A DNA stretch of 64,000 nt from Alphaproteobacteria bacterium (GTDB lineage Bacteria > Pseudomonadota > Alphaproteobacteria > Micropepsales > Micropepsaceae). Shown here piece by piece: positions 9,276 to 22,998 of the stretch. The notes below the pieces were generated by a model. It worked only from the letters and a program-made list of their open reading frames with translations, made no database searches and was not told the origin of the DNA. The DNA lies in contig JAGWJY010000003.1 in NCBI GenBank assembly GCA_028865545.1, positions 1-64,000 on the forward strand. The letters are read 5' to 3'. The first letter of the stretch is position 1, and each line of letters begins with the position of its first letter. A program made the position numbers and the translations under genes.

Positions 9276-10347
9276 CATTTTGAAAGTCATCGCTTGGCTA
9301 CCGGATTGGCTGGTCGCGGCGACAGCACTATTGGCCACCGCCGGCCTGGCCTTGCTCGCCTTCCGATTGGTTCGCGGCGCCCTTCATCGTGCCGTGAAAT
9401 TCGATCACCCTTTCCTCCACACCCTGCTGCAGCGCGCGAGCAGCCTCTTCCAATTCACTGTCATGCTGCTAGCAACCAACATCGTTGTTCCTGTGCTGCC
9501 GTTGGACAACGGTGTTGAGGGAACGCTGCACCGGCTCCTGACCGCCGCGTTTGTGGTTCTGTCGGGCTGGATTGCGGCACTCGCCAGCGATCTGGCGATT
9601 GACCGTTACATCGGCCGCTTCAAGATCAATGTCGAAGACAATCTTCTGGCGCGCAAAGCGGTCACGCAGATGCGCGTACTAAAGCGCACGGTCGAAGTCC
9701 TGATCGGAGTTATTACGCTCGGCTTTGCCCTGATGACCTTCGACACCGTGCGTCAGTACGGCATCAGTCTCTTTGCCTCCGCAGGCGTCGCCGGTCTGGC
9801 TGTCGGCCTTGCCGCCAAGCCACTGTTGAGCAACCTCATCGCCGGCGTGCAGATTGCCCTCACCCAGCCCATCCGTATTGAAGACGTCGTTATCGTCGAG
9901 GGAGAATGGGGTTGGATCGAGGAATTCACGTCGACCTATGTGGTCATCCGGATTTGGGACCTTCGACGACTGGTCGTGCCGCTCAGCTATTTCCTCGAGA
10001 AGCCTTTCCAAAATTGGACACGCGTCTCTTCGTCAATCCTCGGCAGCGCCTTCTTCTATCTTGACTATACCGCAGAGATAGATCGCGTGCGGACCAAGTT
10101 CGAAGAAATCGTCAAAGCGTCAAAATTATGGGACGGTAACGTCCTTAGCATGCAGGTGACCAATATCAGCGAGCGCACAGTGGAGATTCGAGCACTGATG
10201 AGCGCGCGTAATTCTTCGCTGTCCTGGGATTTGCGCTGTGAGGTCCGCGAAAAGCTGCTGGTTTTCCTGCAGCAAAACTATCCCGAGGCGCTGCCGCGTT
10301 GGCGCGCTGACATCAGCGAGATGCCGCAACGCTTCCAAGCCGGATGA
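9262..10347 (+). CDS. MscS-family mechanosensitive channel, trehalose operon
   Basis: A 361-residue MscS-type channel. An N-terminal set of four to five membrane helices precedes the pore-lining segment (SAGVAGLAVGLAAKPLLSNL), then the beta domain (EDVVIVEGEWGWIEEFTSTY and RLVVPLSYFLEKPFQNW). ATG 9262 is chosen because it starts directly at the first hydrophobic region; it overlaps the end of otsA by 14 bases. Being translated with trehalose synthesis genes suggests a release valve for accumulated osmolyte on down-shock, which is inference. Its last 35 bases overlap the convergent decarboxylase gene. Confidence 0.92.
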   Translation: MFLSDILKVIAWLPDWLVAATALLATAGLALLAFRLVRGALHRAVKFDHPFLHTLLQRASSLFQFTVMLLATNIVVPVLPLDNGVEGTLHRLLTAAFVVLSGWIAALASDLAIDRYIGRFKINVEDNLLARKAVTQMRVLKRTVEVLIGVITLGFALMTFDTVRQYGISLFASAGVAGLAVGLAAKPLLSNLIAGVQIALTQPIRIEDVVIVEGEWGWIEEFTSTYVVIRIWDLRRLVVPLSYFLEKPFQNWTRVSSSILGSAFFYLDYTAEIDRVRTKFEEIVKASKLWDGNVLSMQVTNISERTVEIRALMSARNSSLSWDLRCEVREKLLVFLQQNYPEALPRWRADISEMPQRFQAG

Positions 10348-11761
10348 CGGCATCGACCATCGCGTCGATATCGCAAATCTGTGTGCGGTGGTTGACGAAG
10401 GCAGCGCGTATGGCCATCTGACCGTTGATGATTGTGGTCGATGGCACCGCGACTCCGGATTCGTGCAGATCGGCAACGATCTTCGCATTGGCGGTATCGT
10501 CGGCACGGTAACGGAAGCAGACAATGTTCAACTGCGCCGGCGCCAGAAGCTCCAATTGGGGCTCCGTGCGGACGCGCTGTTCGAGATACCTGGCGAGATC
10601 GCAGGTTCGTGCAATTACCGCACCCAAGCGATCGGTGCCGTAGGTTTTCAACGTGAACCACGTTTTTAGCGCCCGGAAGCCGCGCGAAAGGTCCGGTCCA
10701 AATTCGCTGGGCCAAGGTGAGCCAGCCGCCAGACCGCGTGTCTCACGCCGCAGATAGGTGGCTGGCGAAGCGAACGTATCACGGTGGAGTTCACCATCGC
10801 GCACCAGTAGGAAGCCAGCGTCATAGGGCACCTGCCCCCATTTATGAAAATCGAAAGCAATGGAGTCCGCGCGTTCGATACCTCGCACCAACGGTGCAAG
10901 CTCCGGCGACCAAACCGCCAGCGCACCAAATGCACCGTCAATGTGAAAGCGCATCTTTTCCTGCCGGCAAATTTCACTCAGAGTCAGCAAATCGTCGATC
11001 GCGCCGGTATCGACCGTTCCGGCGGTGCCGATCACCAAGAATGGTTCCAATCCGGCGGCACGGTCCTCCGCAACCGCCTTGCGCAGTGCCGCGATGTCCA
11101 TTCGGAAGCGCTCATCGGTCGGGATTTTCTGCAGCGCGTCGGTACCCAGGCCGGCGATCTCCATCGCCTGGGCGACACAAATATGGGCCGACGTGGAGGT
11201 ATAGGCGCGAAGCTTTGCGCTCTGCGCGGCGATTCCGGACTGCCGTGTTGCGCGGCCCAAGGCAGCCGTGCGCGCAATCAAGATGGCAAGCAGATTGGCG
11301 ATGGATGTACCGGTGACGAACAACCCGCTGGCTCCATCGGGAAAGCCAAACATCTCTCGGGTCCAGGCAACGATCTGCCGTTCCACCTCTATCGGCATGT
11401 GATCGCGGCCGCCAAGATTAGCGTTCAAGCCGGCCGCCAGCATTTCGCCGAGCATACCCACGGCCGTACCGCCGCCGTGCACCCAGCCCATGAAACCAGG
11501 ATGAACATTGCCGGTGGCATAGGGGGCGACGAACCGAGAGAACTCTTCGTAGGCGTCTTCCAGACGGGCTGGTTGATGCGGTAACTTGGTGCGGAAATGC
11601 TCGCGCGCCTGCTGTGGGATGGGTTGCCACACCGGTCGTTCGCGGACATGCTCGATATAATCGATCATGTCGTCGAGCATACGGTGCCCTAATGCCCGCA
11701 ACTCGGTCCAATTTTCGGGGTCTAGGGTGATACCGTTCGAAACGCGATTGTCTTTGGTCAC
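10313..11761 (-). CDS. PLP-dependent group II amino-acid decarboxylase
   Basis: A 482-residue group II (aromatic-L-amino-acid/glutamate type) decarboxylase. Visible features: SAHICVAQA with the cofactor-stacking His193, GTAGTVDTGAIDDL at 245-258, HIDGAFGALA with Asp275 that contacts the PLP pyridine, and DFHKWG with the Schiff-base Lys307. The substrate is unknown. It starts with GTG at 11761, overlapping the stop of the ATP-grasp gene (GTGA), and is the last gene of a tightly overlapped three-gene operon. The 3' end overlaps the convergent mscS gene by 35 bases. Its company suggests that it decarboxylates an amino acid used by, or produced from, the ligase product. Confidence 0.88.
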   Translation of the reverse strand: MTKDNRVSNGITLDPENWTELRALGHRMLDDMIDYIEHVRERPVWQPIPQQAREHFRTKLPHQPARLEDAYEEFSRFVAPYATGNVHPGFMGWVHGGGTAVGMLGEMLAAGLNANLGGRDHMPIEVERQIVAWTREMFGFPDGASGLFVTGTSIANLLAILIARTAALGRATRQSGIAAQSAKLRAYTSTSAHICVAQAMEIAGLGTDALQKIPTDERFRMDIAALRKAVAEDRAAGLEPFLVIGTAGTVDTGAIDDLLTLSEICRQEKMRFHIDGAFGALAVWSPELAPLVRGIERADSIAFDFHKWGQVPYDAGFLLVRDGELHRDTFASPATYLRRETRGLAAGSPWPSEFGPDLSRGFRALKTWFTLKTYGTDRLGAVIARTCDLARYLEQRVRTEPQLELLAPAQLNIVCFRYRADDTANAKIVADLHESGVAVPSTTIINGQMAIRAAFVNHRTQICDIDAMVDAVIRLGSVAASR

Positions 11762-12981
11762 GCGGCGCAGGCCTGGGGCTTTCCAGCGTGATCGTATAGC
11801 ATTGCCACGAACGCGTCGAAAACCTTCTGCATCTGCGGCGCCTTGTACGGAAAGACCGCCGGAGGGTCCATGTTGTGGACAATCGCAGTATTGTCGGCCT
11901 CGAAAACCAGAAGATCACCGTTCCGTGTTTCCGCGCAGTCGATCTGGAAGTAGTCCAAACCGATCCGGTTTATGGCCTCGGAAAGGGCAACGGCATGGCG
12001 TGCTGCAAACTCGCCATCGAACGTTGCCATGAAATGCGCCTCCTCGGCGCGCTTCCCTTCGCTGAGAGTCATATCGGCATTCAGATACCAGATTTTCCAC
12101 TCGTCCGAAATCGCCATATGACACGCATAGGGTACGCCGTCGACGCAGACCAGACGGTATTTGCGGAACAAGCCGTCAGAGCTGGCATAGTCGACAAACC
12201 GGGAGATGAAGAACTCCGCTTCCGGGCGCTGCGCCAAGTATCCGGCGATGTCCGACACGTTCTCGAGCTTGGCGAGGCCGCGGCCAGCATGCGAACCGAT
12301 CGGACGTACGATCAGCGGGAACCCACCGTCATCTAGCCATCGTGGAAGGTCCATCTCGCTCAGCGCCGCCAAATCCGGTCTGGACAACCGGGCTGTCATG
12401 GGAATTTCCAGGCCAGAGACCGACCTCAAAAGGCGATAGAGGCGGTCTCGATCGAGCGCGCGGATTCGCATGGCTGGGTTGAGGACTTTGCGCGGCCATT
12501 CGGCGGTCAATCTCTCGATGTCGTCGAGCGTGGCCTGCGTCTTGTCATCGTCCGGGGCGACCACGATCGCCACATCGTGCGCAGGCAACGGGTCCGGCAG
12601 CGGCTTACCCGGAACGACATACAGCGTGGTCAGTTCGACATCGGAGCCTTCCAGCAGAAATTCGATTGGCGTGTTGCCGCCGATGTCCATTTCGGCCGCC
12701 AGTGCGAGAACCCTCAATTTGGGTGTCGGCGTGGCGCAGGGCGACCGATAGAGCCGCTGATAGTCGAGGACGTCCCTCTGGATCGCAAGTCCCGTCGCCT
12801 GGTCTCCCAACAATTGCGCGATGATCGACAAATCCATACCGATGCCCGAACCCTTGGCATCGTCTGTCACCTTCTCCATCATCTCGTGCCAGAGTGGGCG
12901 TAAGTTGACACCGTTGAAGGCCATTTTCGTCAACTGCGCTACACCCATGCGATCGACGCGAAACGCTTCGGCGGCACTCAT
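11758..12981 (-). CDS. ATP-grasp ligase of unknown specificity
   Basis: A 407-residue protein with a C-terminal ATP-grasp domain from about residue 170. Visible elements are the glycine-rich loop RPIGSHAGRG (226-235), the FRKYRLVCVDGVPYA strand pair, and the metal-binding DCAETRNG...FEADN (348-364, acidic residues and N364). The first 160 residues are not a family I can name. ATP-grasp enzymes of this group form carboxylate-amine bonds through an acyl-phosphate. From memory, similar domains occur fused to tetratricopeptide repeats in rhizobial proteins; no such repeats are evident here. ATG 12981 has a GAGG upstream and overlaps the preceding stop by four bases. Substrate is unknown. Confidence 0.8.
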   Translation of the reverse strand: MSAAEAFRVDRMGVAQLTKMAFNGVNLRPLWHEMMEKVTDDAKGSGIGMDLSIIAQLLGDQATGLAIQRDVLDYQRLYRSPCATPTPKLRVLALAAEMDIGGNTPIEFLLEGSDVELTTLYVVPGKPLPDPLPAHDVAIVVAPDDDKTQATLDDIERLTAEWPRKVLNPAMRIRALDRDRLYRLLRSVSGLEIPMTARLSRPDLAALSEMDLPRWLDDGGFPLIVRPIGSHAGRGLAKLENVSDIAGYLAQRPEAEFFISRFVDYASSDGLFRKYRLVCVDGVPYACHMAISDEWKIWYLNADMTLSEGKRAEEAHFMATFDGEFAARHAVALSEAINRIGLDYFQIDCAETRNGDLLVFEADNTAIVHNMDPPAVFPYKAPQMQKVFDAFVAMLYDHAGKPQACAA

Positions 12982-14558
12982 TTCGGCCTCGCAAGATCGG
13001 CGGCGACGATCAACTCTACCTTCCGCACAACCGTACCAATCTCGTCGATCACGGCGCAGATATTCCGTTCGGTCGCATCGTCATCGTTCGACCAAGCCTC
13101 AGACAACGTGCGTGCGCCAATGTTGATGCGCAAAACCGTACCACCCGGAAGCTTGACCGGTTGGCCGATATGACATTTCAGACCTGCGAGAGCACGGTCC
13201 TCTTCCTTCACCGTTTCCGGCAAGGCCGACGAGATATCGCGGTTGAGAAGGTGATATATCTTCGTCATCTCGTCGAGGCCAAGCATGCGGTCGCCGTTTC
13301 TGACGAAGAACGGAAAGATCGTCGCAGGCATGCCGTCGGTATCGGCGCCCTGTCCTGCGACCAATGCGAGATTCGGCGACGAGGCGATAGTTGCTTGTAC
13401 CGCTTCGGCTAGCCTTTCCAATGTCGACCGCCGAAAGGACTCCGGAAGAGCGTAATACGCTTCCATTTCTTCCAGCGACGCCTCCCAGCGCAACCATTGG
13501 CCGAAATTCGGCTCGGACGACAGCACGGCGCGCACGGATGACCATCGCAGTGGCAGATCGAAGCGTGTCGCGTAGTCGGCAATCCCTTGAGGCGGCATCT
13601 CCATTGCCGCAATGCGGTCCGACAACGCTTGTGGCCAGAGAGATGCACCGCTGAATGCCGGACCGGTAAAGAACTTGGAGCCGGTCAGCAGCACGACGTA
13701 GCCGCGATCCAGATAGCTCCGCAGCCGCGACCGATCGATACGCATCTGACACGCATCTATCACGACCTGCACGTCCTTCGGCCAACGCGCCACCACGTCG
13801 CGCAGGCACCTGTCGGACGGCGCGCGCCAGCCCAGCTTTGAAGAATGCATCGCCTGCAGGATAACTTTGTGGCCGGCACGGATTTGCGTCTTGACGGCCT
13901 CTAACACGGCAGCATCAACCTCCCGCTCCGAACGCGGCGTGCCGTCTTCGGAAATCAGGGGGATGTTGACGTTCGCCACATCTTCAGATGCGCCAACGAT
14001 GGGCTCACCTTTAACAACGGTCCGTCCTTGCGCCGTCCGGTCGGAAAAGTGGCGGCCGCGGCAGGTATGCACCGTGCCGCCGCCCGTCTGATCCGCGGCG
14101 ACAACGACGCTGGCGACGAAGCCACCCACCAATTGGCGGATGAAGAAGAGCGCGTGCAGCTGTGAGTCTGTGCCGGACGGCGAAAAAACGATCTCGGCGC
14201 CGCCAAGTCCAAGCAACGACCGCAGCGACTGGCGCATGGATTCGACACGCCAATCGAGTGCATTGCTTATGCCAAGAGATACCGAAGCTTCTATCAACTC
14301 GCCGCGCGCGCGGCGCGCGCGCTGATAGGCACGCTCAGATATCGACGTCGCCGTCGACGAGGAAAATGCCAGCGTTCCAGGACAAGGATGAGGACTGCAC
14401 TCATAGACATTGGCGGTGTTGACGGGGTCAACAGTCAGCCGGGCGTCTCCGCCTTCGACGAGGAGAAACGGCAAAGGTTTGAATAGAGCGCCGAGAGCAC
14501 TCGACGGAATAATCGGTGACAGTTCTGTGTCGGTCGCCAAAGCGCCAGATTTGCGCAT
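12978..14558 (-). CDS. Fold-type I PLP enzyme, aminotransferase/desulfurase-like
   Basis: A fold-type I PLP protein of about 526 residues. Numbered from the upstream ATG at 14597, the PLP-contacting Asp281 is in VVIDACQM and the probable Schiff-base Lys308 in LLTGSKFFTGPAFSG; FSPSGTDSQLHAL at 138-150 fits the phosphate-binding loop. It resembles class V aminotransferases and cysteine desulfurases only distantly, so the reaction is not assigned. ATG 14558 is preferred because AGAGGAG lies ten bases upstream, whereas ATG 14597 has no ribosome site. It is the first gene of the operon with the ATP-grasp ligase and decarboxylase, joined by four-base ATGA/GTGA overlaps, implying a common pathway. 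Confidence 0.75.
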   Translation of the reverse strand: MRKSGALATDTELSPIIPSSALGALFKPLPFLLVEGGDARLTVDPVNTANVYECSPHPCPGTLAFSSSTATSISERAYQRARRARGELIEASVSLGISNALDWRVESMRQSLRSLLGLGGAEIVFSPSGTDSQLHALFFIRQLVGGFVASVVVAADQTGGGTVHTCRGRHFSDRTAQGRTVVKGEPIVGASEDVANVNIPLISEDGTPRSEREVDAAVLEAVKTQIRAGHKVILQAMHSSKLGWRAPSDRCLRDVVARWPKDVQVVIDACQMRIDRSRLRSYLDRGYVVLLTGSKFFTGPAFSGASLWPQALSDRIAAMEMPPQGIADYATRFDLPLRWSSVRAVLSSEPNFGQWLRWEASLEEMEAYYALPESFRRSTLERLAEAVQATIASSPNLALVAGQGADTDGMPATIFPFFVRNGDRMLGLDEMTKIYHLLNRDISSALPETVKEEDRALAGLKCHIGQPVKLPGGTVLRINIGARTLSEAWSNDDDATERNICAVIDEIGTVVRKVELIVAADLARPK

Positions 14559-14847
14559 TCGCCCAGCACTCCTCTCAAACTGGCGCTCACGGCCCATACA
14601 CTCGGCGGATTTGGTTAAAATGTGGTTGCAAAGCGGGTTCCCTCGCCGTGATTGGCGCTACAAGCACGTGTCTCCGCGCCGGTGTCGGCCCTTGTCGGCA
14701 CCTCTGCGGTTTTTCGTGCAGACGACGGCAACATCCGCCTGCGGCATCTTCGTTGAAATCCACGTATGGCGCCTGTAAGCAGGGATGACCGCCGCGGCGG
14801 TGGGCAGGGCGCCCGGCGATATCAACAACTCGTAACTGGAGAATGCT

Positions 14848-15450
14848 ATGACCATCAAACTGCCTGATCTTCCCTATGGAAAAGATGCACTAGCCCCGCA
14901 CGTCAGCGCATCGACGCTGGAGTTCCATCACGACAAGCATCACCAGGCCTATGTCACGAACACCAACAAGCTGATTGCCGGCACCGAACTCGCCGATAAG
15001 AGCCTGGAAGAGCTGATCGCAATCGCTGCGAAAAGCCCCGACAAGAAAGCGTTGTTCAACAACGCGGCCCAGACCTGGAATCACACCTTCCTTTGGCACT
15101 CCATGGCTCCGAATGGTGGCGGCAAGCCGCACGGCGCGATCGCGGAACGCATCACGCAGGACTTTAAGGGCTACGACTCCTTCGTCGAAGCCTTCACCGC
15201 GGCGGCAACCGGCCAGTTTGGCAGCGGCTGGGCATGGCTGGTGCTGAACGGCAGCAAGCTCGAAGTGACGGCGACGACCAACGCAGACACGCCGTTGGTT
15301 CATGGAAAAGTTCCGCTGCTGACGATCGACGTCTGGGAACACGCCTATTATCTCGACTATCAGAACCGGCGACCAGACTACGTGAAGACCTTCTTGGACA
15401 AGCTGGTGAACTGGGATTTTGTCAACGCCAACCTGGCGCACGCGAAGTAG
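14848..15450 (+). CDS. sodB: Superoxide dismutase, iron type
   Basis: A 200-residue Fe/Mn superoxide dismutase. The metal ligands are seen in LEFHHDKHHQ (first His), AQTWNHTFLW (second His), and IDVWEHAYYLDY (Asp and His). The Gln in NNAAQTWNH, rather than the glycine found at that place in manganese enzymes, favours iron. No signal peptide, so cytoplasmic. GGAG six bases before the ATG sets the start. It converts superoxide to peroxide and oxygen. The gene is monocistronic, ending in the hairpin at 15481-15511. Confidence 0.96.
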   Translation: MTIKLPDLPYGKDALAPHVSASTLEFHHDKHHQAYVTNTNKLIAGTELADKSLEELIAIAAKSPDKKALFNNAAQTWNHTFLWHSMAPNGGGKPHGAIAERITQDFKGYDSFVEAFTAAATGQFGSGWAWLVLNGSKLEVTATTNADTPLVHGKVPLLTIDVWEHAYYLDYQNRRPDYVKTFLDKLVNWDFVNANLAHAK

Positions 15451-15584: not shown

Positions 15585-17627
15585 CTACCGAGCAGCCTCT
15601 ATCTGAGTCAGCGCACCGAGAACGGCTGCTGGCGTCAGAAGTTGTGGCAGCACCACGACGCGTCCCTGCGCTCCCGGCGGATACAGCAGATAGAGCGGCA
15701 CGCCGCTACGGCCAAACTGGTTCAGCTCGGCCGTGATGGCGGAGTTACGGTTGGTCCAGTCGCCCTTCAGGGTCACGACCCGGTCATGTCGTAAACGAGC
15801 TGCAACCGCCGCGTTGTCCAAGGCAACGCGCTCATTGACCAAGCAGGTCACGCACCATGCCGCGGAAAAATCGACCAATACGGGTTTTCCGGCCTGGCGC
15901 GCATCCGCCACGGCTTCGGCCGACCACGGCGCCCAACCGCTCGCGCTTTGCGCCGGGACCGTTCGGATTTGCAGACCCAAGGCGACCAAAGCGGCGACCC
16001 CGGCAAGGCCTGTGGCCCAGCGAAACCAGGGACGAAGCAACGGCAATAACCACAAAAGGAAAACGAGACCCAAACCTGCGGAAAATGCAACGGCTACTCC
16101 GGTGGAACCAACCTGCTGGCTCAACACCCACAACAACCATATGGCGGTCGCGAACATCGGGAAAGCCAGAAATTCTTTGAAGCGGATCATCCACGGACCA
16201 GGCTTCGGCACCAGACGGATAAGCGCCGGTGTGAACGCGAGCGCGCTGAACGGAAGCGCGAAGCCAATACCTAGGGTCACGAAGACGACGATTGCGGACG
16301 ACGCCGGTTGTGTCAGCGCAAAGCCCAAGGCTGTGCCCATAAAAGGTGCGGTGCACGGGCTTGCGACCAGCACGGCAAGCGCACCGGTGAAGAAGGCACC
16401 CTGCCCGCCTTCAGCACGGGTCAGATCATTACCCACACCCGCCAGGCTCAGCGGAACCTCAAACACACCCAAAAGATTCAGTCCGATCGCCGTCATGAGC
16501 AGAGCCAAAACGAATACAACCTGTGGAGATTGGAGCTGGAAGCCCCAGCCGAGCGCGGCGCCGCCCGCCTTCAATAACAGGAGCGCCCCGCCTATGGCTG
16601 TAAACGTGACCAGTACACCAGCAAAGTAGAATACGCCGTCCCGCCGCATCGCCTGCGAGCTTCCGCTGGACTGAGCCAGCGCCAAGGCCTTCATCGATAA
16701 GATCGGCAGGACGCACGGCATCAAATTCAGGATCAGACCGCCTAAGAAAGCCATGAGGGCAGCTTCAAGCAGTGTCATGCCATCGCCGTGCACCGGAAAT
16801 CCCGTCGCGACCGTGACCGCCGCTGTAGCGCCATCAAGCATTGGCAAAGCGGAGACATTGAACGCACCAACACCATGAATGTCCATCACACCAGCAAAGA
16901 TGCGGAACGGTTTCCCGTGCAACGGGCGAGCGGCATCCCAGGTCAATGTGTTACCGCGGATGCTCACCTTGGGCAGGACGTCATAATCTACAGCGCGTGT
17001 CGTTGACGGGTAGAAGTGCACGGCATCCGCCTTGACGCCTGACAGCGCAGGATCAGTGAGCGTCAACTTCACAGTTTTTTTATCGACGGCAACGCGCGCA
17101 GTGCCATCGAACCTGCGCGGCAACGCGGCTCTCGCCGCGGCAAAGACCGCCGGCGACGCTTCGTGCAAATTGAGATCAAGCGTCGCCTGCTCCGGAATAC
17201 ACATCTGCGCGCATTCGAGCAAAAACAGCTTTGCCTGTGCCGACCCGATGGCCGCATCGCGCGCAATTGTCAGCGGAACGAGCAATGTCGCCTCGCCGGT
17301 GTAGCCGTAATTGACGATAGGGCCGGTGGTGAAGCGTTCAGGCGTCGGCCATTGCGGCATTCCTGCCGTCACACCCTTCGGCAGATCCCAGGACACTGAC
17401 GTCGCAAGACCGGAGTCTCCCGGATTGAGCCAATAGGTATGCCATCCTGGTTCGATAACCTGGCGGATCGCCACCCATACCGTCGATCCCGGCCTGGCTG
17501 GCGATTCAAGCGCGATACTCAGCGCGACATGATCCACCCGAATATTGGATGCAGCATAAACCGGCATGGCCCAAAGAAATGCACCAGCTACCGCGGAAAT
17601 AATGATATGGAGATAGCCCTTGCGCAT
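15585..17627 (-). CDS. DsbD/ScsB-family membrane thiol-disulfide reductase
   Basis: A 680-residue three-part protein: signal peptide (about 1-25), periplasmic DsbD-alpha-like domain containing ECAQMCIP, a CcdA-type eight-helix membrane domain with the paired-cysteine segments LMPCVLPILSMKAL and ASPCTAPFMG, and a C-terminal periplasmic thioredoxin domain with C592-V-T-C595 (AAWCVTC). The family carries electrons from cytoplasmic thioredoxin across the inner membrane to periplasmic thiols. The long N-terminal domain is closer to ScsB-type proteins than to classical DsbD. It starts five bases after the apbE gene ends and is the last gene of the tlpA-DUF4266-DUF3570-apbE cluster, so it is likely to reduce the TlpA-like partner. 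Confidence 0.9.
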   Translation of the reverse strand: MRKGYLHIIISAVAGAFLWAMPVYAASNIRVDHVALSIALESPARPGSTVWVAIRQVIEPGWHTYWLNPGDSGLATSVSWDLPKGVTAGMPQWPTPERFTTGPIVNYGYTGEATLLVPLTIARDAAIGSAQAKLFLLECAQMCIPEQATLDLNLHEASPAVFAAARAALPRRFDGTARVAVDKKTVKLTLTDPALSGVKADAVHFYPSTTRAVDYDVLPKVSIRGNTLTWDAARPLHGKPFRIFAGVMDIHGVGAFNVSALPMLDGATAAVTVATGFPVHGDGMTLLEAALMAFLGGLILNLMPCVLPILSMKALALAQSSGSSQAMRRDGVFYFAGVLVTFTAIGGALLLLKAGGAALGWGFQLQSPQVVFVLALLMTAIGLNLLGVFEVPLSLAGVGNDLTRAEGGQGAFFTGALAVLVASPCTAPFMGTALGFALTQPASSAIVVFVTLGIGFALPFSALAFTPALIRLVPKPGPWMIRFKEFLAFPMFATAIWLLWVLSQQVGSTGVAVAFSAGLGLVFLLWLLPLLRPWFRWATGLAGVAALVALGLQIRTVPAQSASGWAPWSAEAVADARQAGKPVLVDFSAAWCVTCLVNERVALDNAAVAARLRHDRVVTLKGDWTNRNSAITAELNQFGRSGVPLYLLYPPGAQGRVVVLPQLLTPAAVLGALTQIEAAR

Positions 17628-17631
17628 TTTG

Positions 17632-18570
17632 TTACCGGATGCACCAAGCGCGCACGCCTTCGCGCTTGAGGAATGCTTCGGCGCGTTTGCCCTGCAGCAT
17701 TGCCAAGGTCGCGAACATTCCGGCCTCGATGCACGTGGCGGCGGCCACGGTTACGGACCGCGGTGTATGCTCGATTGGCCAACCCGTGCGTGGATTCAAT
17801 ATATGCCCGTAACGCACGCCGTCCTTTAGGAGAAACCGGCGCGCGTCGCCGCTCGTCGCAAGCGCGCCGTCCGCGAGTTCGAGCATTCCCGCCATTTCGC
17901 CGGTTTTCTCGACGGATTCGATCGCTACTTTCCAACGCGTTCCGTATTTCCGCGGTCCCGATACGCGCAGATCGCCGCCGAAATTCACCAATGCCGGCAC
18001 CGGCGTGATCTCACGGATCGCGCTAAGCGCCTTATCAACGGCGTATTCCTTGGCCAATCCGCCGAAATCTATTTCCATTCCGGCCGGTAAGATGATCGCG
18101 GGCGGTTTCCACGACACCTTTTGCCAGCCAATTAGCGAGCGCAATGCTTTGATCTGTGCTTCGGTGGGAACACGGTCGGACCCGTCGAACCGCCACAAAC
18201 GGCGCAGCACACCCGACGTGACGTCAAAGAGACCGTCACTGACCTGAAAGCATCGAGTCGCAAAATCCAGCAGATGCGAGGTCTCCGCATCGACGGCGAG
18301 TTCCTTGCCGCCGCTGGCATTGATGCGCCCCACCACGCTGTCGCCGCGATACCGGCTGAATTTCTGTTCGATGCGGCGCGCTTCCGCCTCGGCGACGCGC
18401 ACAACGGATTCCGCCAAGGCGGCATCCTCCGTTTCAAGCCTTACCTCGCATGGCGTCGCCATCGCGTGGAAAGTATAAAGAAAGTCAGAACCTGACCGCC
18501 CCAGTCGCGCTGCTGGCGCCGACTTCGTGCTCCCCCGCAAATCCGTCCTCGGTGTCGTTGCCGTCTCCAA
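17632..18570 (-). CDS. apbE: FAD:protein FMN transferase
   Basis: ApbE-family flavin transferase that attaches FMN to Thr/Ser in the motif Dxx(S/T)GA(S/T) of target proteins. The conserved opening FHAMATPCEVRL is at 34-45, followed by DVTSGVLRRLWRFDG, EIDFGGLAKEYAVDKA, NFGGDLRVSG, and NPRTGWPIEHTPRSVTV with AGMFATLAML near the end. The start is uncertain: TTG 18570 follows the DUF3570 stop directly; TTG 18540 has an AGGA five bases upstream. With either start no signal peptide or lipobox is visible, unusual for an enzyme acting on exported targets. The neighbouring DUF3570 protein is the obvious candidate substrate. Confidence 0.9.
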   Translation of the reverse strand: METATTPRTDLRGSTKSAPAARLGRSGSDFLYTFHAMATPCEVRLETEDAALAESVVRVAEAEARRIEQKFSRYRGDSVVGRINASGGKELAVDAETSHLLDFATRCFQVSDGLFDVTSGVLRRLWRFDGSDRVPTEAQIKALRSLIGWQKVSWKPPAIILPAGMEIDFGGLAKEYAVDKALSAIREITPVPALVNFGGDLRVSGPRKYGTRWKVAIESVEKTGEMAGMLELADGALATSGDARRFLLKDGVRYGHILNPRTGWPIEHTPRSVTVAAATCIEAGMFATLAMLQGKRAEAFLKREGVRAWCIR

Positions 18571-20013
18571 TTAATGAAAATCCCATGTATAGCCCAAAAG
18601 GACAAAGACAGCGCTGGTGCCGGCAAACAGGTTCTGCTGCTTAAGTTGCCCAATCGCGGCCGCAGGATGACCGTCACCGGTCTGCCGGTAATAATCGCCA
18701 GTCAGATAGAACTCGGTCCTTCCGGTCAGCTTGAACCCGACCTTCATCCCGACAGTCATCGAGGTGAATTTTCCAAGCCTTGTGTCCGATGACGCGTAAG
18801 CAGGAGTCGCTTGGTTATCGAGTAGGTAATAGTGAAAGAAATTCGCCGCAGACTGCTGATACCAGCGCGCGCTCGGTTCCAGGTAAATGGACGACGAGAG
18901 ATTTACGCGCTCGGACAGTTCAGCCGTCTTTGACGTGATGCCCCAGCTATCTTTGAAATAGCGCAGCGACAGCTCCGTCACGGTTGGGCCATAGTCGAAC
19001 TTATTGTCCCAAAAAATGCTCTGGCTCGTCCGTTTGTTCGGACGGTTTTCATAAAGATAACTCGTCGGCTCACCACTCACGGGATCGACGGTCGAGATGA
19101 CGCGGTAGGGATCGTTCTGATAGCCGCTTTGTGTATCGTAAGAATAGTTGAGCTGCATCAACCAGCGCCTCGTCATCACCTCCGTAAGGCCCGCGACAAA
19201 ACCGACTTGGGTTTTGCTACGGGAGGTTGGCGTCTTCAATTGCCCGTTCATCACCGTCATGGGCATCGGAACGCCGCCATAGGGAAACGAAGAATCGAGT
19301 TCGGTGTTCACCGCAAGGCTGATGGTCGTGTTGTCAGAATTGAAATTCTGCGAAATCCGCACATTTCCGGTGATGGCCCGGTAATCCTGCTCGACGGAGT
19401 AACCGCCACCAAATCCGACAAGCGAAATGCCACCAAGCGGCTGTGACCACCCGAAATTGGCGGCCATACGATGATCATGAAAGCCCTTATCGACGGGCAG
19501 CGTGTTCGGCGCAACTGTGTACTGGCGTGCTACGGTCGAGACTTGTCCGGGCGTAGACGGCAACCGAATGACGGTGCTGCCTCCGGAGGCGCTGGTCACC
19601 GTCGCCGTACCGCCGCTCTTTCCACCGGTTACGATCTTGACCGGCGTGACGAAAGTTTGCGTTTGGTCGGAAGGAACGGCACCATTCGGAGTCGCCCCGG
19701 AAACCGCATCGGCAACAAGACCGAGCGTCAACTCCTGCCCAGCGGCGCCATGCACCGACAAATCGGTTGCCGGCTCGATGGCCTGTACGCGGCCACCCGA
19801 CTCCTTATAGACTAGCAACGCGCTGTCGAGCTCCGAATAGGCGACGCCCGGACCAAAATTGTCGTTGTTGTAGCCATACGCGGGATCATAATATTGCTGC
19901 TGCGCCATCGCCTTGTCGGCATGGGTGGCGATTGTCGCGGCAAGCAGGCTTGCCGAGAAGGTGGCGAGGCTTTCGCGAACCTGTCCCTTATGCTTCTTCT
20001 TTTTCAATTGCAC
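18571..20013 (-). CDS. DUF3570 predicted outer-membrane beta-barrel protein
   Basis: A 480-residue exported protein: a basic N-terminus and hydrophobic stretch ending ADKAMAQ give a likely signal peptide of about 37 residues, and the rest is rich in alternating aromatic strands (LNYSYDTQSGY, FYLTGDYYRQTGDGH) and ends in TWDFH, consistent with a beta-barrel with an aromatic C-terminus. It matches the DUF3570 family. Residues 102-108 read DAVSGAT, an exact match to the ApbE flavinylation consensus. The start is GTG 20013, ten bases inside the end of the DUF4266 gene with GGAGG upstream. No function is established; next to apbE and thiol reductases it may carry covalent FMN. Confidence 0.85.
   Translation of the reverse strand: MQLKKKKHKGQVRESLATFSASLLAATIATHADKAMAQQQYYDPAYGYNNDNFGPGVAYSELDSALLVYKESGGRVQAIEPATDLSVHGAAGQELTLGLVADAVSGATPNGAVPSDQTQTFVTPVKIVTGGKSGGTATVTSASGGSTVIRLPSTPGQVSTVARQYTVAPNTLPVDKGFHDHRMAANFGWSQPLGGISLVGFGGGYSVEQDYRAITGNVRISQNFNSDNTTISLAVNTELDSSFPYGGVPMPMTVMNGQLKTPTSRSKTQVGFVAGLTEVMTRRWLMQLNYSYDTQSGYQNDPYRVISTVDPVSGEPTSYLYENRPNKRTSQSIFWDNKFDYGPTVTELSLRYFKDSWGITSKTAELSERVNLSSSIYLEPSARWYQQSAANFFHYYLLDNQATPAYASSDTRLGKFTSMTVGMKVGFKLTGRTEFYLTGDYYRQTGDGHPAAAIGQLKQQNLFAGTSAVFVLLGYTWDFH
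19690..19710 (-). other. Flavinylation-motif codons in the DUF3570 gene
   Basis: These 21 bases encode DAVSGAT (residues 102-108). ApbE enzymes are known to attach FMN to the last Thr/Ser of Dxx(S/T)GA(S/T), as in NqrC and RnfG; here that is Thr108, encoded at 19690-19692. The match is seen directly; modification is inferred from apbE being the next gene. Confidence 0.6.
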
Positions 20014-20249
20014 CCGCAGCCTCCACCGGCGAAGCCGCGGCCGCCGCTTGATGCTTCCTTGCTGAAATAAATATGTTCCTCAGCTGCAGTCTTCAGTGGA
20101 TACGGTTCTACCAGCATTTCCTTCCGCGCCATGAGATCCTTCTCCCACGGCTTAGGCCCGATGGAGCTGCAGGCGCCGCACAACAGCGCCAAGCCGGTAC
20201 ATGCTGTTACAACCGTAGCGATTTTTTTTAAGGGAAAACGGGTTGGCAT
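20004..20249 (-). CDS. DUF4266 small lipoprotein
   Basis: An 81-residue protein with a hydrophobic leader and a near-lipobox ending at Cys27 (LLCGAC), followed by PWEKDLMARKEML, EEHIYFSKEASSGG and a C-terminal GGGCGCN. This layout is that of the DUF4266 family. ATG 20249 begins at the leader; an upstream in-frame start would lie inside tlpA. The gene starts eight bases after tlpA and its end overlaps DUF3570. The Cys78/Cys80 pair at the extreme C-terminus could be redox active or bind metal, which is inference. Function is unknown. Confidence 0.82.
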   Translation of the reverse strand: MPTRFPLKKIATVVTACTGLALLCGACSSIGPKPWEKDLMARKEMLVEPYPLKTAAEEHIYFSKEASSGGRGFAGGGCGCN

Positions 20250-20256
20250 ATTCACG

Positions 20257-20724
20257 TTAGGGCGCCTTTTCGTTGAGCAACTTGTCGATGTCGGCGGCGT
20301 AGGACATTTCACGATTGGCATAAAATCCTGCGTGCACGTAGTGCACCTTTCCGTCGCGCCCGATCAGATACGACGTCGGCATATCCTTGAAATTATATTC
20401 GCCAGCGATCTTGCCCTCGGGGTCGTAGACGATCTTGAACTGTGCGCCAGTGGCTTGAAGAAATTCATTTGCAAGTTCGCGATCGTGATCGACATTGACG
20501 CCAATGACGACAAGCCCCTTGCTTCCATAGAGCTGCTGAAGTTGGTTCATCCACGGAAACGATGTCCGGCATGGGTTGCACCACGATGCCCAGAAATCGA
20601 GATAGACGACCTTTCCCTTGTAGGCGTTGAGATCGAGACCTTGAGCCTTGGCAGGAATTGTGGCGACCGAAAATAAAACGGTGAAGAGGGACAAAAAAAC
20701 TGCTGCGCTGAAGCGTAGGCCCAT
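20257..20724 (-). CDS. TlpA-like periplasmic thioredoxin
   Basis: A 155-residue TlpA/ResA-type thioredoxin-fold protein. A signal peptide of about 28 residues ends PAKA-Q; the active site is WASWCNPC (Cys49, Cys52), and a cis-proline is in MPTSYLIG. AAGGAA eight bases upstream supports ATG 20724. Such proteins reduce or isomerise disulfides, or hold thiols for cofactor insertion, in the periplasm. It is the first gene of the five-gene cluster whose last gene encodes the membrane reductase that could recharge it. Confidence 0.92.
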   Translation of the reverse strand: MGLRFSAAVFLSLFTVLFSVATIPAKAQGLDLNAYKGKVVYLDFWASWCNPCRTSFPWMNQLQQLYGSKGLVVIGVNVDHDRELANEFLQATGAQFKIVYDPEGKIAGEYNFKDMPTSYLIGRDGKVHYVHAGFYANREMSYAADIDKLLNEKAP

Positions 20725-20942
20725 AGACTGCGGTTCCTTTACCGTGCTGCTCGTCGGTGACTGTGTGAGTTACAAATACATTAGCCATGTGTGCCTGGCA
20801 TTACGGGAGTCCGTATTTTTTGTCGGGATTTGTTGTCGATGCGGCAAACTGCAATGAAAGCAGCGCCAAGCTCGGCTCATCGTCCACGCTTGCCAACTAT
20901 ACAGTTCGTCAATTATCCGCCTTCTGCGGCACCGATGCTTCG

Positions 20943-22310
20943 TTAAGCAATGGCGGGAAAGGCTATGTTGATCTTCAGCCCAGGTTGGTTGTCACTCGCG
21001 GAAATTTTGGCGCCGTGCAACTCCGCCACGGCAGCGACGATGCTGAGCCCGAGGCCATTGCCGGCCATCGTCCTGCTGCGCTCGAGTCGGTAGAACCTTT
21101 TGAAAATGCGCTCACGCTCCGCCTCTGGGACGCCGCAGCCGTTGTCGGCGACGCTGAGATTAACGCCGTCGCGACCTCGCTTGAGGGCAACCGTTACCGC
21201 CGCGTCAGCCGGCGTGTGCGCGATTGCATTCTCTAGTAGATTGGCTAGAGCCTGCACCAGCAATTCACGGTCACCGTGTATCCAGAGGTCGTGCTGGACC
21301 TCAGTGTGTAACTTCTTTCCAGCGTCCTCCATTGACGGCGCGAAGGTCTCACATACGTCCATCGCCAAGTCACTTAACAATAAATCCTGAAAGCCCGTGC
21401 GCCGGCTTCCGCTTTCGATTTGGGCGATGCGCAGAATCGCGCCGAATGTATCGAGAATGCTGTCGACCTCAGATACGGCTTTGTCTATGGCCGTACGATA
21501 TTCCTCTGGCGACAAGGCGTTTCGCCTCGCCTCTTCCAATGAATGACGGAGCCGGCCCAAAGGCGTCCGCAGGTCATGTGCGACGTCGTTTGAGACGTGC
21601 CGTAGACTTTCCATCAGCGTGGTCGTGCGATCGAGCATGCGGTTAAGCGTCGCTGCCAACCTGTCGAGATCGTCAGGCGCTTCACGACGCGGGATGCGTC
21701 GACTGATATCTCCTTCGATGATCGCCTCGGCAGTCCGGCTTATCGCCTCGATGCGCCGAAGCACCCTCGAACTGAGGAAGAAACCTCCCGCTACGGCCAT
21801 GGTCACGGTTAGTAGGAACACCCAACCGAAGCTATCGAGGATGAGAGAGCCAAATTTCCCAATCTTGCCGATGTCATCCCCGACAAGCAGACAGTAACCG
21901 CCTGTCAGTGGCGTTACCAAAACGCCCAATTTTTCCATCTCTCCGCTTGGTTCGTCGCCATCCGGAGGGCCAGTGAAAGTTACCCAGCCTCTCTTGCAGG
22001 GGACCGCCGGCAGCGTCCCGAACAAGTGTTTTCCCTTGGCGTCATAGAGCGTGTAATCGAGCCCGCCAATTAGCCGGCCGCGCTGCCGCTCGCTGATGGC
22101 CTGCAATAGCTGATCCGTTCCTCCGTGCACATATTCCGCGCGAAGGGCATTCGAATCCGCGACGATTCGAGTCCGGATTGTCTGCTGCAGCTGGGACGTT
22201 GACGAGAAATAGACGAGCCCCGCCAAGATACCGACGGAAACGCTGAAAAGGCCTACATAAGCCGCCGTGAGCTTAAAGCTTGCTGACTTAAGAAGCTGTC
22301 CGAGCCGCAC
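20943..22310 (-). CDS. HAMP-domain sensor histidine kinase
   Basis: A 455-residue membrane kinase. Helices at about 15-36 and 160-181 flank a periplasmic sensor of about 120 residues, with a cysteine at 105 (AVPCKRGW) and another at 140. HAMP follows (about 182-235), then the dimerisation domain with phospho-accepting His245 (DVAHDLRTPLGRLRH), and an ATPase domain with NLLENAIAHTP, DNGCGVP and GNGLGLSIV. The stimulus is unknown. It overlaps the upstream response regulator gene by 23 bases, so the two form one two-component system. Confidence 0.94.
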   Translation of the reverse strand: MRLGQLLKSASFKLTAAYVGLFSVSVGILAGLVYFSSTSQLQQTIRTRIVADSNALRAEYVHGGTDQLLQAISERQRGRLIGGLDYTLYDAKGKHLFGTLPAVPCKRGWVTFTGPPDGDEPSGEMEKLGVLVTPLTGGYCLLVGDDIGKIGKFGSLILDSFGWVFLLTVTMAVAGGFFLSSRVLRRIEAISRTAEAIIEGDISRRIPRREAPDDLDRLAATLNRMLDRTTTLMESLRHVSNDVAHDLRTPLGRLRHSLEEARRNALSPEEYRTAIDKAVSEVDSILDTFGAILRIAQIESGSRRTGFQDLLLSDLAMDVCETFAPSMEDAGKKLHTEVQHDLWIHGDRELLVQALANLLENAIAHTPADAAVTVALKRGRDGVNLSVADNGCGVPEAERERIFKRFYRLERSRTMAGNGLGLSIVAAVAELHGAKISASDNQPGLKINIAFPAIA

Positions 22311-22962
22311 GAATCAAATATCCCGAGCCACGTATCGTCTGGATGATGTCTCCGCCGATCTTCGAACGAAGACGGCTGATATGCGTTTCGACAATATTCG
22401 TCTTCGGATCGAAGTGATAGTCCCAGACGCCTTCGAGCAGCATGGTCCGCGTCGCGATCTGGTCCGGGCGCCGCATCAGATATTCGAGCAAAGCGAACTC
22501 TCGCGGCTGCAAATCGATTTCCCGCCCGGCCCGCGTCACGCGCCGTTTGATGAGGTCCATCTCCAACTCACCGACGTGAATCGTCGTCGGCTGCCCTGCC
22601 AGATGCGGTCGGCGCAACAGAGCGTTGACGCGTGCGAGAAGCTCCGTGAAAGCGAAGGGCTTGGAAAGATAGTCGTCTCCACCGGAGTTCAACCCTTCAA
22701 CGCGATCGTCAAGGCCACCAAGATTGCTGAGAAACAAAACGGGCAATCTCGATTCCTTCTCGCGCAATGCTTTTACAAGAGACAGACCGTCCATGCCCGG
22801 AAGCATGCGGTCAACAATCAGCAGATCGTAATGCCCTTTGCTGGCGAGTTCGAAACCGCCATCTCCGCGCGCAGCATGATCGACGTTATGGCCGCTCTCC
22901 GCGAGCCCACGAAGTATATAAGCGGCCAGATCGGAATCGTCTTCGACCAGAAGTATATTCAT
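22288..22962 (-). CDS. OmpR-family response regulator
   Basis: A 224-residue regulator: receiver domain with acidic pocket ED (7-8), phospho-accepting Asp51 (LLIVDRMLPGMDG) and the conserved Lys in YLSKPF, followed by an OmpR/PhoB winged helix (LQPREFALLEYLMRRP, THISRLRSKI, RGSGYLI). ATG 22962 starts at the usual MNILLVEDD; in-frame starts further upstream would only add a tail. It is the partner of the overlapping histidine kinase. Targets are unknown; the small DHDGD gene directly upstream and the tlpA cluster downstream are candidates by position only. Confidence 0.94.
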   Translation of the reverse strand: MNILLVEDDSDLAAYILRGLAESGHNVDHAARGDGGFELASKGHYDLLIVDRMLPGMDGLSLVKALREKESRLPVLFLSNLGGLDDRVEGLNSGGDDYLSKPFAFTELLARVNALLRRPHLAGQPTTIHVGELEMDLIKRRVTRAGREIDLQPREFALLEYLMRRPDQIATRTMLLEGVWDYHFDPKTNIVETHISRLRSKIGGDIIQTIRGSGYLIRAARTAS

Positions 22963-22998
22963 GATGCTTCCACGTTTGACAAACACCACGTCGTCGAA

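Follow-up and report, generated by a model that had tools for sequence, protein, structure and literature searches.

Within the 64,000-nucleotide stretch analysed here (the window; positions 1 to 64,000 of contig JAGWJY010000003.1, from an alphaproteobacterium of the Micropepsaceae) lie five neighbouring genes that encode a periplasmic thioredoxin (TlpA), a DUF4266 lipoprotein, a DUF3570 protein, the flavin adenine dinucleotide (FAD):protein flavin mononucleotide (FMN) transferase ApbE and the membrane thiol reductase DsbD. Two features of this family that we did not find reported suggest that the flavin is attached to DUF3570 before export and that, in some relatives, a haem motif stands at the flavin spot. 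The locus itself is not new: full-text literature searches on DUF3570 and DUF4266 found only Meheust et al. 2021 (PMC8238504), which describes the gene set, the flavin and a proposed electron flow and thereby makes the window locus a member of a known DsbD-type flavinylation system. The reading that we put forward, tentatively and with slightly less than even confidence, is that a dedicated clade of leaderless ApbEs flavinylates an outer-membrane beta-barrel before Sec translocation, so that the barrel would reach the surface with its redox cofactor in position at the extracellular side, that a haem motif takes the place of the flavin in some Acidobacteriota, and that the barrel would thus hold a cofactor at the surface that can be exchanged and that a thiol relay supplies with electrons.

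ApbE and the place of flavin attachment

The family set was assembled by profile searches and one public-genome scan, which gave 111 loci, with Bacteroidota and Chlorobium loci outside the sampled set. The window ApbE is similar to solved FMN transferases (5mgy, 2.5e-33), and its ApbE domain scores over the curated cut-off. It starts at a TTG right after the DUF3570 stop and in the same frame, with about 35 hydrophilic residues ahead of the conserved core, and hydropathy indicated neither a signal peptide nor a lipobox. In a leader test with a 12-residue hydropathy threshold of 2.0, the threshold was reached by one of 91 ApbEs of DUF3570 loci versus 24 of the 29 rows that these genomes contributed from ApbE loci; among the five comparison rows that failed, L168 and L169 are adjacent copies, and L166 and L167 are roughly 6 kb away from a DUF3570. 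Applied to other proteins of the same loci, the test was passed by 88% of TlpA and 98% of DUF4266 sequences, against 1% for ApbE, while DUF3570 leaders were weaker (median 1.83). A second genome set gave the same leader contrast. The leaderless ApbEs formed one branch in two trees (support 100/98 and 100/99), with rows from at least four phyla (Pseudomonadota, Acidobacteriota, Nitrospirota and Krumholzibacteriota).

Only one ApbE was found in the window genome (96% complete), and the same holds for three genomes of its genus. Because the adjacent ApbE is leaderless and there is no second ApbE in the genome, cytosolic attachment is the most simple account if DUF3570 is flavinylated in these organisms, and in the window clade FMN is probably put on DUF3570 in the cytosol before export, which would mean that Sec passes a polypeptide bearing FMN. 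If an earlier note on this DNA, made by a model from the sequence alone, meant flavinylation to occur in the envelope, it is probably mistaken as regards this clade, whose ApbE has no signal peptide. A tag of seven residues suffices for ApbE, with the best results at termini, and cytosolic ApbEs have been named for a soluble fumarate reductase of bacteria and for fusions in eukaryotes (PMC12052999).

The DUF3570 barrel and its cofactor site

AlphaFold2 modelled DUF3570 from 75 aligned sequences with a predicted local distance difference test score (pLDDT) of 91 and 16 long strands, and the prediction has the features of a 16-strand outer-membrane barrel, including a last strand at the C-terminus. 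Comparison of the model with the PDB returned porins and other outer-membrane barrels (Z up to 21.7); Foldseek alone also returned barrels, with modest TM-scores. The long loops all face one way and the short turns the other; the N- and C-termini share the side of the short turns, and this sets the orientation of the predicted barrel and places the flavinylation motif (mature D65-T71) at the upper, extracellular end of strand 3. Judging from the hydropathy alternation of this strand, and not from model coordinates, D65, G69 and T71 would point to the lumen. Conservation peaks on the same side: of the 60 residues with the highest conservation, 49 belong to extracellular loops or to the upper halves of strands and 11 lie below (Fisher p 0.003). 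The loops of surface barrels are normally their most variable part, so this distribution argues for a functional site facing out. The barrel topology and the extracellular flavin site, as predicted from the model, are new here.

The DxxSGAT site that the earlier note had pointed to in DUF3570 is present as D102-A-V-S-G-A-T108, in single copy and conserved in the family. Its residues 105-108 (SGAT) match [ST]GA[ST], which is unlikely by chance (a rough composition estimate gives about 0.003 per protein of that length), and the protein has one such motif only, with its clade relatives likewise showing one at this place; a second motif, reported for ApbE-associated DUF3570s, is not a defining feature of the cluster. 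The check that the note suggested, whether the motif is kept only beside apbE, came out in part: [ST]Gx[ST] was found in 91/91 DUF3570s with an adjacent apbE versus 7/13 without, in a recount that put L041 as adjacent (where apbE comes after an exceptionally long DUF3570 gene) and scored L046 by its second site, but Gly-less motifs also adjoin secreted ApbEs in another DUF3570 type. The long gene in L041 (9266-12001) encodes a 912-amino-acid DUF3570 with a long His/Met-rich insert.

This other type, type S, was found in sampled Acidobacteriota and Nitrospirota (loci L273, L275-L281, L285, L290, L292 and L295-L298). The adjacent ApbE bears a signal peptide and groups with ordinary secreted ApbEs in the tree, and the DUF3570 site is mostly DxxS/T-[SA]-A-[ST], with the Gly absent. 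Two general rules failed on these loci: that the ApbE beside DUF3570 is always leaderless, which we restricted to one clade, and that the motif Gly is lost following apbE loss, as type S loci with an adjacent ApbE are Gly-less.

In five Acidobacteriota DUF3570s of the second type (L274, L276, L278, L279 and L280), the degenerate flavin site runs straight into a CXXCH (DAISAASDSCARCH and variants). These five were the only ones of 152 DUF3570 sequences to have the motif, always at the same position, with C, C and H constant and the letters between the cysteines varying; all five cases may stem from a single event. The position of this putative c-haem motif supports a redox role for the site, and the finding fits the idea of flavin/cytochrome exchange put forward in PMC8238504. 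A further DUF3570 type (L049, L050, L054 and L056-L061) belongs to a large cluster that also encodes SH3, TPR and ExbD-like proteins; it has no adjacent apbE, and in several genomes one lies about 6-18 kb off.

The thiol relay and competing explanations

We give about even weight to an inside-to-outside electron route, encoded by the five genes, that runs from dithiols to a barrel-bound FMN. Cytosolic thioredoxin would reduce DsbD, DsbD would reduce TlpA by dithiol exchange, and TlpA would pass electrons to the C-terminal CGC dithiol of DUF4266, presumed to be a lipoprotein of the outer membrane whose Gly-rich tail is flexible. That dithiol would then reduce FMN bound by a phosphoester to Thr108 of DUF3570, from where, in the extracellular vestibule of the 16-strand barrel, electrons would reach an outside acceptor. 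The leaderless, cytosolic ApbE would load FMN onto the DUF3570 precursor while this is still unfolded, ahead of Sec export and assembly of the barrel, and a neighbouring two-component pair would control the operon. We infer the order and direction of electron flow, the pre-export modification, the regulation and the acceptor; DUF4266 would reach the FMN through or beside the barrel, with passage through the lumen a guess. The outer-membrane flavoprotein fed through DsbD, TlpA and DUF4266 that the earlier note envisaged fits this evidence and is near the proposal in PMC8238504, so that its overall reading is partly supported, and extracellular or metal redox work by the system may be its purpose as the note supposed.

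In favour of a dithiol chain made up of DsbD, TlpA and DUF4266 are Cys pairs that are intact, a gene order that stays constant and a single gene fusion. The cysteines listed in the earlier note, TlpA C49/C52 and DsbD C592/C595 (WCVTC), are in place, and DsbD has two further pairs, N-terminal C139/C143 and membrane C305/C425, which with its domain set give the full make-up of the family. It reached 100 of 330 bits against the NCBIfam subfamily PRK00293, and by sequence it is a DsbD/ScsB-like protein outside that subfamily; a second DsbD_TM protein was found elsewhere in the genome. DUF4266 does end in Cys-Gly-Cys followed by Asn, a CGCN tail with a C-terminal CXC that recurs in 108/109 relatives. 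Its lipid Cys is invariant among 48 aligned sequences, and the start is therefore most likely not at 20321 but the ATG at 20249, which lies 7 nt past the tlpA stop. The model of DUF4266 alone, of low confidence overall, shows a pair of short helices and a tail predicted to be disordered (tail pLDDT about 34). With its invariant CGCN, the Gly-rich C-terminal arm resembles a swinging arm for redox exchange, an idea comparable to the tail of thioredoxin reductase. TlpA and DUF4266 are also linked by a natural fusion of the two, with the lipobox absent (L140:9264-9944, from one metagenome-assembled genome of Candidatus Polarisedimenticola svalbardensis).

Several points weigh against this route, or against attachment before export. 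By our estimate about 35-40 A separate the FMN site from the periplasmic face, a gap that DUF4266 spans in no model; the direction of electron flow could be reversed; and no acceptor or metabolic partner was found among 117 flanking proteins scanned, in which no family occurred more than three times. The absence of a leader was judged by hydropathy, not SignalP, and cytosolic attachment is not universal by the sequences, since the second DUF3570 type has secreted ApbEs. Covalent flavin was reported on Chlorobium luteolum DUF3570, at two sites, for truncated proteins expressed in E. coli (PMC8238504), and this test is therefore silent on the place of the reaction in vivo.

If flow ran the opposite way, the outside-facing flavin would oxidise the DUF4266 CGC in the manner of an Ero1-like thiol oxidase, and periplasmic thiol electrons would pass to oxygen or metal outside, with DsbD only balancing TlpA. 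CXC dithiols and flavins do exchange electrons both ways in known enzymes, and DsbD is in or beside only about a third of the 111 loci; against this, DsbD stands within the operon in most relatives of the window clade, DsbD and TlpA/ResA proteins are normally reductants, and no disulfide-forming partner family recurred among the scanned neighbours, and we consider this arrangement unlikely. The pairing of TlpA with DsbD, which indicates redox work on a dithiol, the lack of any Cys needing reduction in the window DUF3570 and a CGCN tail kept almost without exception also make it rather unlikely that TlpA and DUF4266 handle a metal (such as Cu(I) bound by the CXC) or aid barrel assembly instead of carrying electrons to flavin, even with a CXC able to bind copper and a two-component pair nearest to heavy-metal families, below cut-off.

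Attachment in the periplasm, by a leaderless ApbE exported through an unrecognised route or with the ApbE inactive on DUF3570, would agree with the secreted ApbEs of type S loci and with characterised ApbEs, which are mostly secreted lipoproteins acting on secreted targets (PMC12052999). We regard it as distinctly improbable for the window: a hydrophobic stretch is almost never seen in the whole open frame ahead of the conserved core of an adjacent ApbE, the DUF3570 stop just upstream closes the window ApbE frame, no other ApbE was found in the window genome, and, once the barrel has folded, the site is predicted to lie on its outer side. A porin-like fold of 16 strands might also belong to a channel or receptor whose flavin is structural or a sensor, which a dedicated thiol-reducing chain in the same operon and the c-haem motif that relatives carry at this position render very unlikely.

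Gene neighbourhood, related systems and significance

Family matches place all five families named in the earlier note where it had them, co-directionally on the - strand in the order TlpA, DUF4266, DUF3570, ApbE, DsbD (Table 1). Its statement that gaps and overlaps stay below ten bases is right for the gaps, which measure 0-7 nt, and not for the single overlap, between DUF4266 and DUF3570, which is 10 bases.

Table 1. Positions of the flavinylation locus and its regulatory neighbours in the window.
Feature	Position	Strand	Remarks
TlpA/ResA-type periplasmic thioredoxin	20257..20724	-	Redoxin 6e-22; signal peptide; C49/C52 (WCNPC)
DUF4266 lipoprotein	20004..20249	-	DUF4266 3e-20; likely start ATG 20249; lipid Cys invariant
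DUF4266 C-terminal CGCN codons	20007..20018	-	CXC dithiol on Gly-rich arm, predicted flexible
DUF3570	18571..20013	-	DUF3570 7e-94; predicted 16-strand outer-membrane beta-barrel, zero Cys
Flavinylation motif codons D102-A-V-S-G-A-T108 (mature D65-T71)	19690..19710	-	predicted extracellular end of strand 3
Leaderless ApbE (FAD:protein FMN transferase)	17632..18570	-	ApbE 4.6e-70; sole ApbE detected in genome
DsbD/ScsB-like transmembrane thiol reductase	15585..17627	-	DsbD_N 2e-18, DsbD_TM 5e-18, Thioredoxin_7 2e-21; three Cys pairs
Sensor histidine kinase	20943..22310	-	periplasmic sensor with conserved GPPDGDE motif
OmpR-type response regulator	22288..22989	-	best NCBIfam model CztR/SilR/CopR, below cut-off
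Conserved intergenic block 5' of tlpA	20800..20838	no strand	short CRACAAA direct repeat

The order TlpA-DUF4266-DUF3570 was nearly invariant in the 111 loci, with ApbE adjacent in about 90. By a count of listed rows, DUF3570 occurred in 7/33 sampled genomes of the window's genus and in 0/27 from the rest of the family, indicating that the module is accessory and patchy there. Two-component genes were the sole recurrent neighbours (55/111 loci, in a single-linkage count within 20 kb that is partly background), and a response regulator and kinase were present in 6/6 close alphaproteobacterial loci, directly upstream in L062-L066 and divergent in L067. The pair at 20943-22989 probably belongs to the same unit as the five genes. 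GPPDGDE is invariant in the kinase sensor domain, and two Cys are found there in 6/7 sequences including the window, both being lost in L067; the sensor possibly senses a metal or thiol. Regulator and kinase matched named two-component models solely below cut-off, and we therefore claim no ligand for the pair. The intergenic block upstream of tlpA is a candidate regulator site or promoter. In L067 (9179-17006) TlpA-DUF4266-DUF3570 is a tandem duplicate followed by one ApbE and one DsbD.

Elsewhere in the window, an Fe/Mn superoxide dismutase gene (14848-15450) is convergent with dsbD and was not found near the operon in close relatives. A PLP decarboxylase at 10313-14597 adjoins two proteins without a Pfam match, by eye one ATP-grasp-like and the other PLP-enzyme-like, and the region is possibly a small biosynthetic cluster.

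Meheust et al. 2021 count 285 DsbD clusters, typically with ApbE, DUF3570 (227), DUF4266 (221) and thioredoxin-like (183) genes, note the DUF4266 C-terminal CXC and propose DsbD-to-flavin electron flow (PMC8238504). The window locus, in which these genes stand together, shares the gene set, the CXC tail and the proposed route. It differs in having one site in DUF3570 versus two in the tested Chlorobium luteolum protein, and in the leaderless ApbE, barrel topology and extracellular site described here, which we did not find in the available main text of that paper, figures and supplements aside. The covalent flavin reported there makes the earlier note's statement that DUF3570 has no established function outdated. 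A 2024 paper lists the outer membrane among the localisations of flavinylated domains and does not treat DUF3570 or DsbD in its text (PMC11334425). The Klebsiella ApbE for soluble fumarate reductase likewise has no signal peptide and acts in the cytosol, but its target is soluble and non-exported, whereas that of the window would go to the outer membrane (cited in PMC12052999).

If our proposal holds, the MtrCAB porin-cytochrome conduits are alike in joining an outer-membrane barrel to a periplasmic redox partner that moves electrons outward; the window system would use flavin and dithiols instead of multihaem cytochromes, has a predicted 16 strands, lacks cytochrome genes anywhere between DsbD and the response regulator, and is not a member of that group. 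Listeria PplA/FmnB extracellular electron transfer also relies on covalent FMN outside the cell and an ApbE-type enzyme, but with a Gram-positive lipoprotein, a secreted transferase and no thiol chain.

The two family features make the mechanism of a known system testable. If the proposed route is true, many Gram-negative bacteria would possess a haem-free surface wire of dithiols and one fixed flavin. Part of extracytosolic flavinylation would then move to the cytosol, with Sec and barrel assembly tolerating bound FMN, and the exchange of flavin for haem at a single site would offer a direct test of the role of the barrel.

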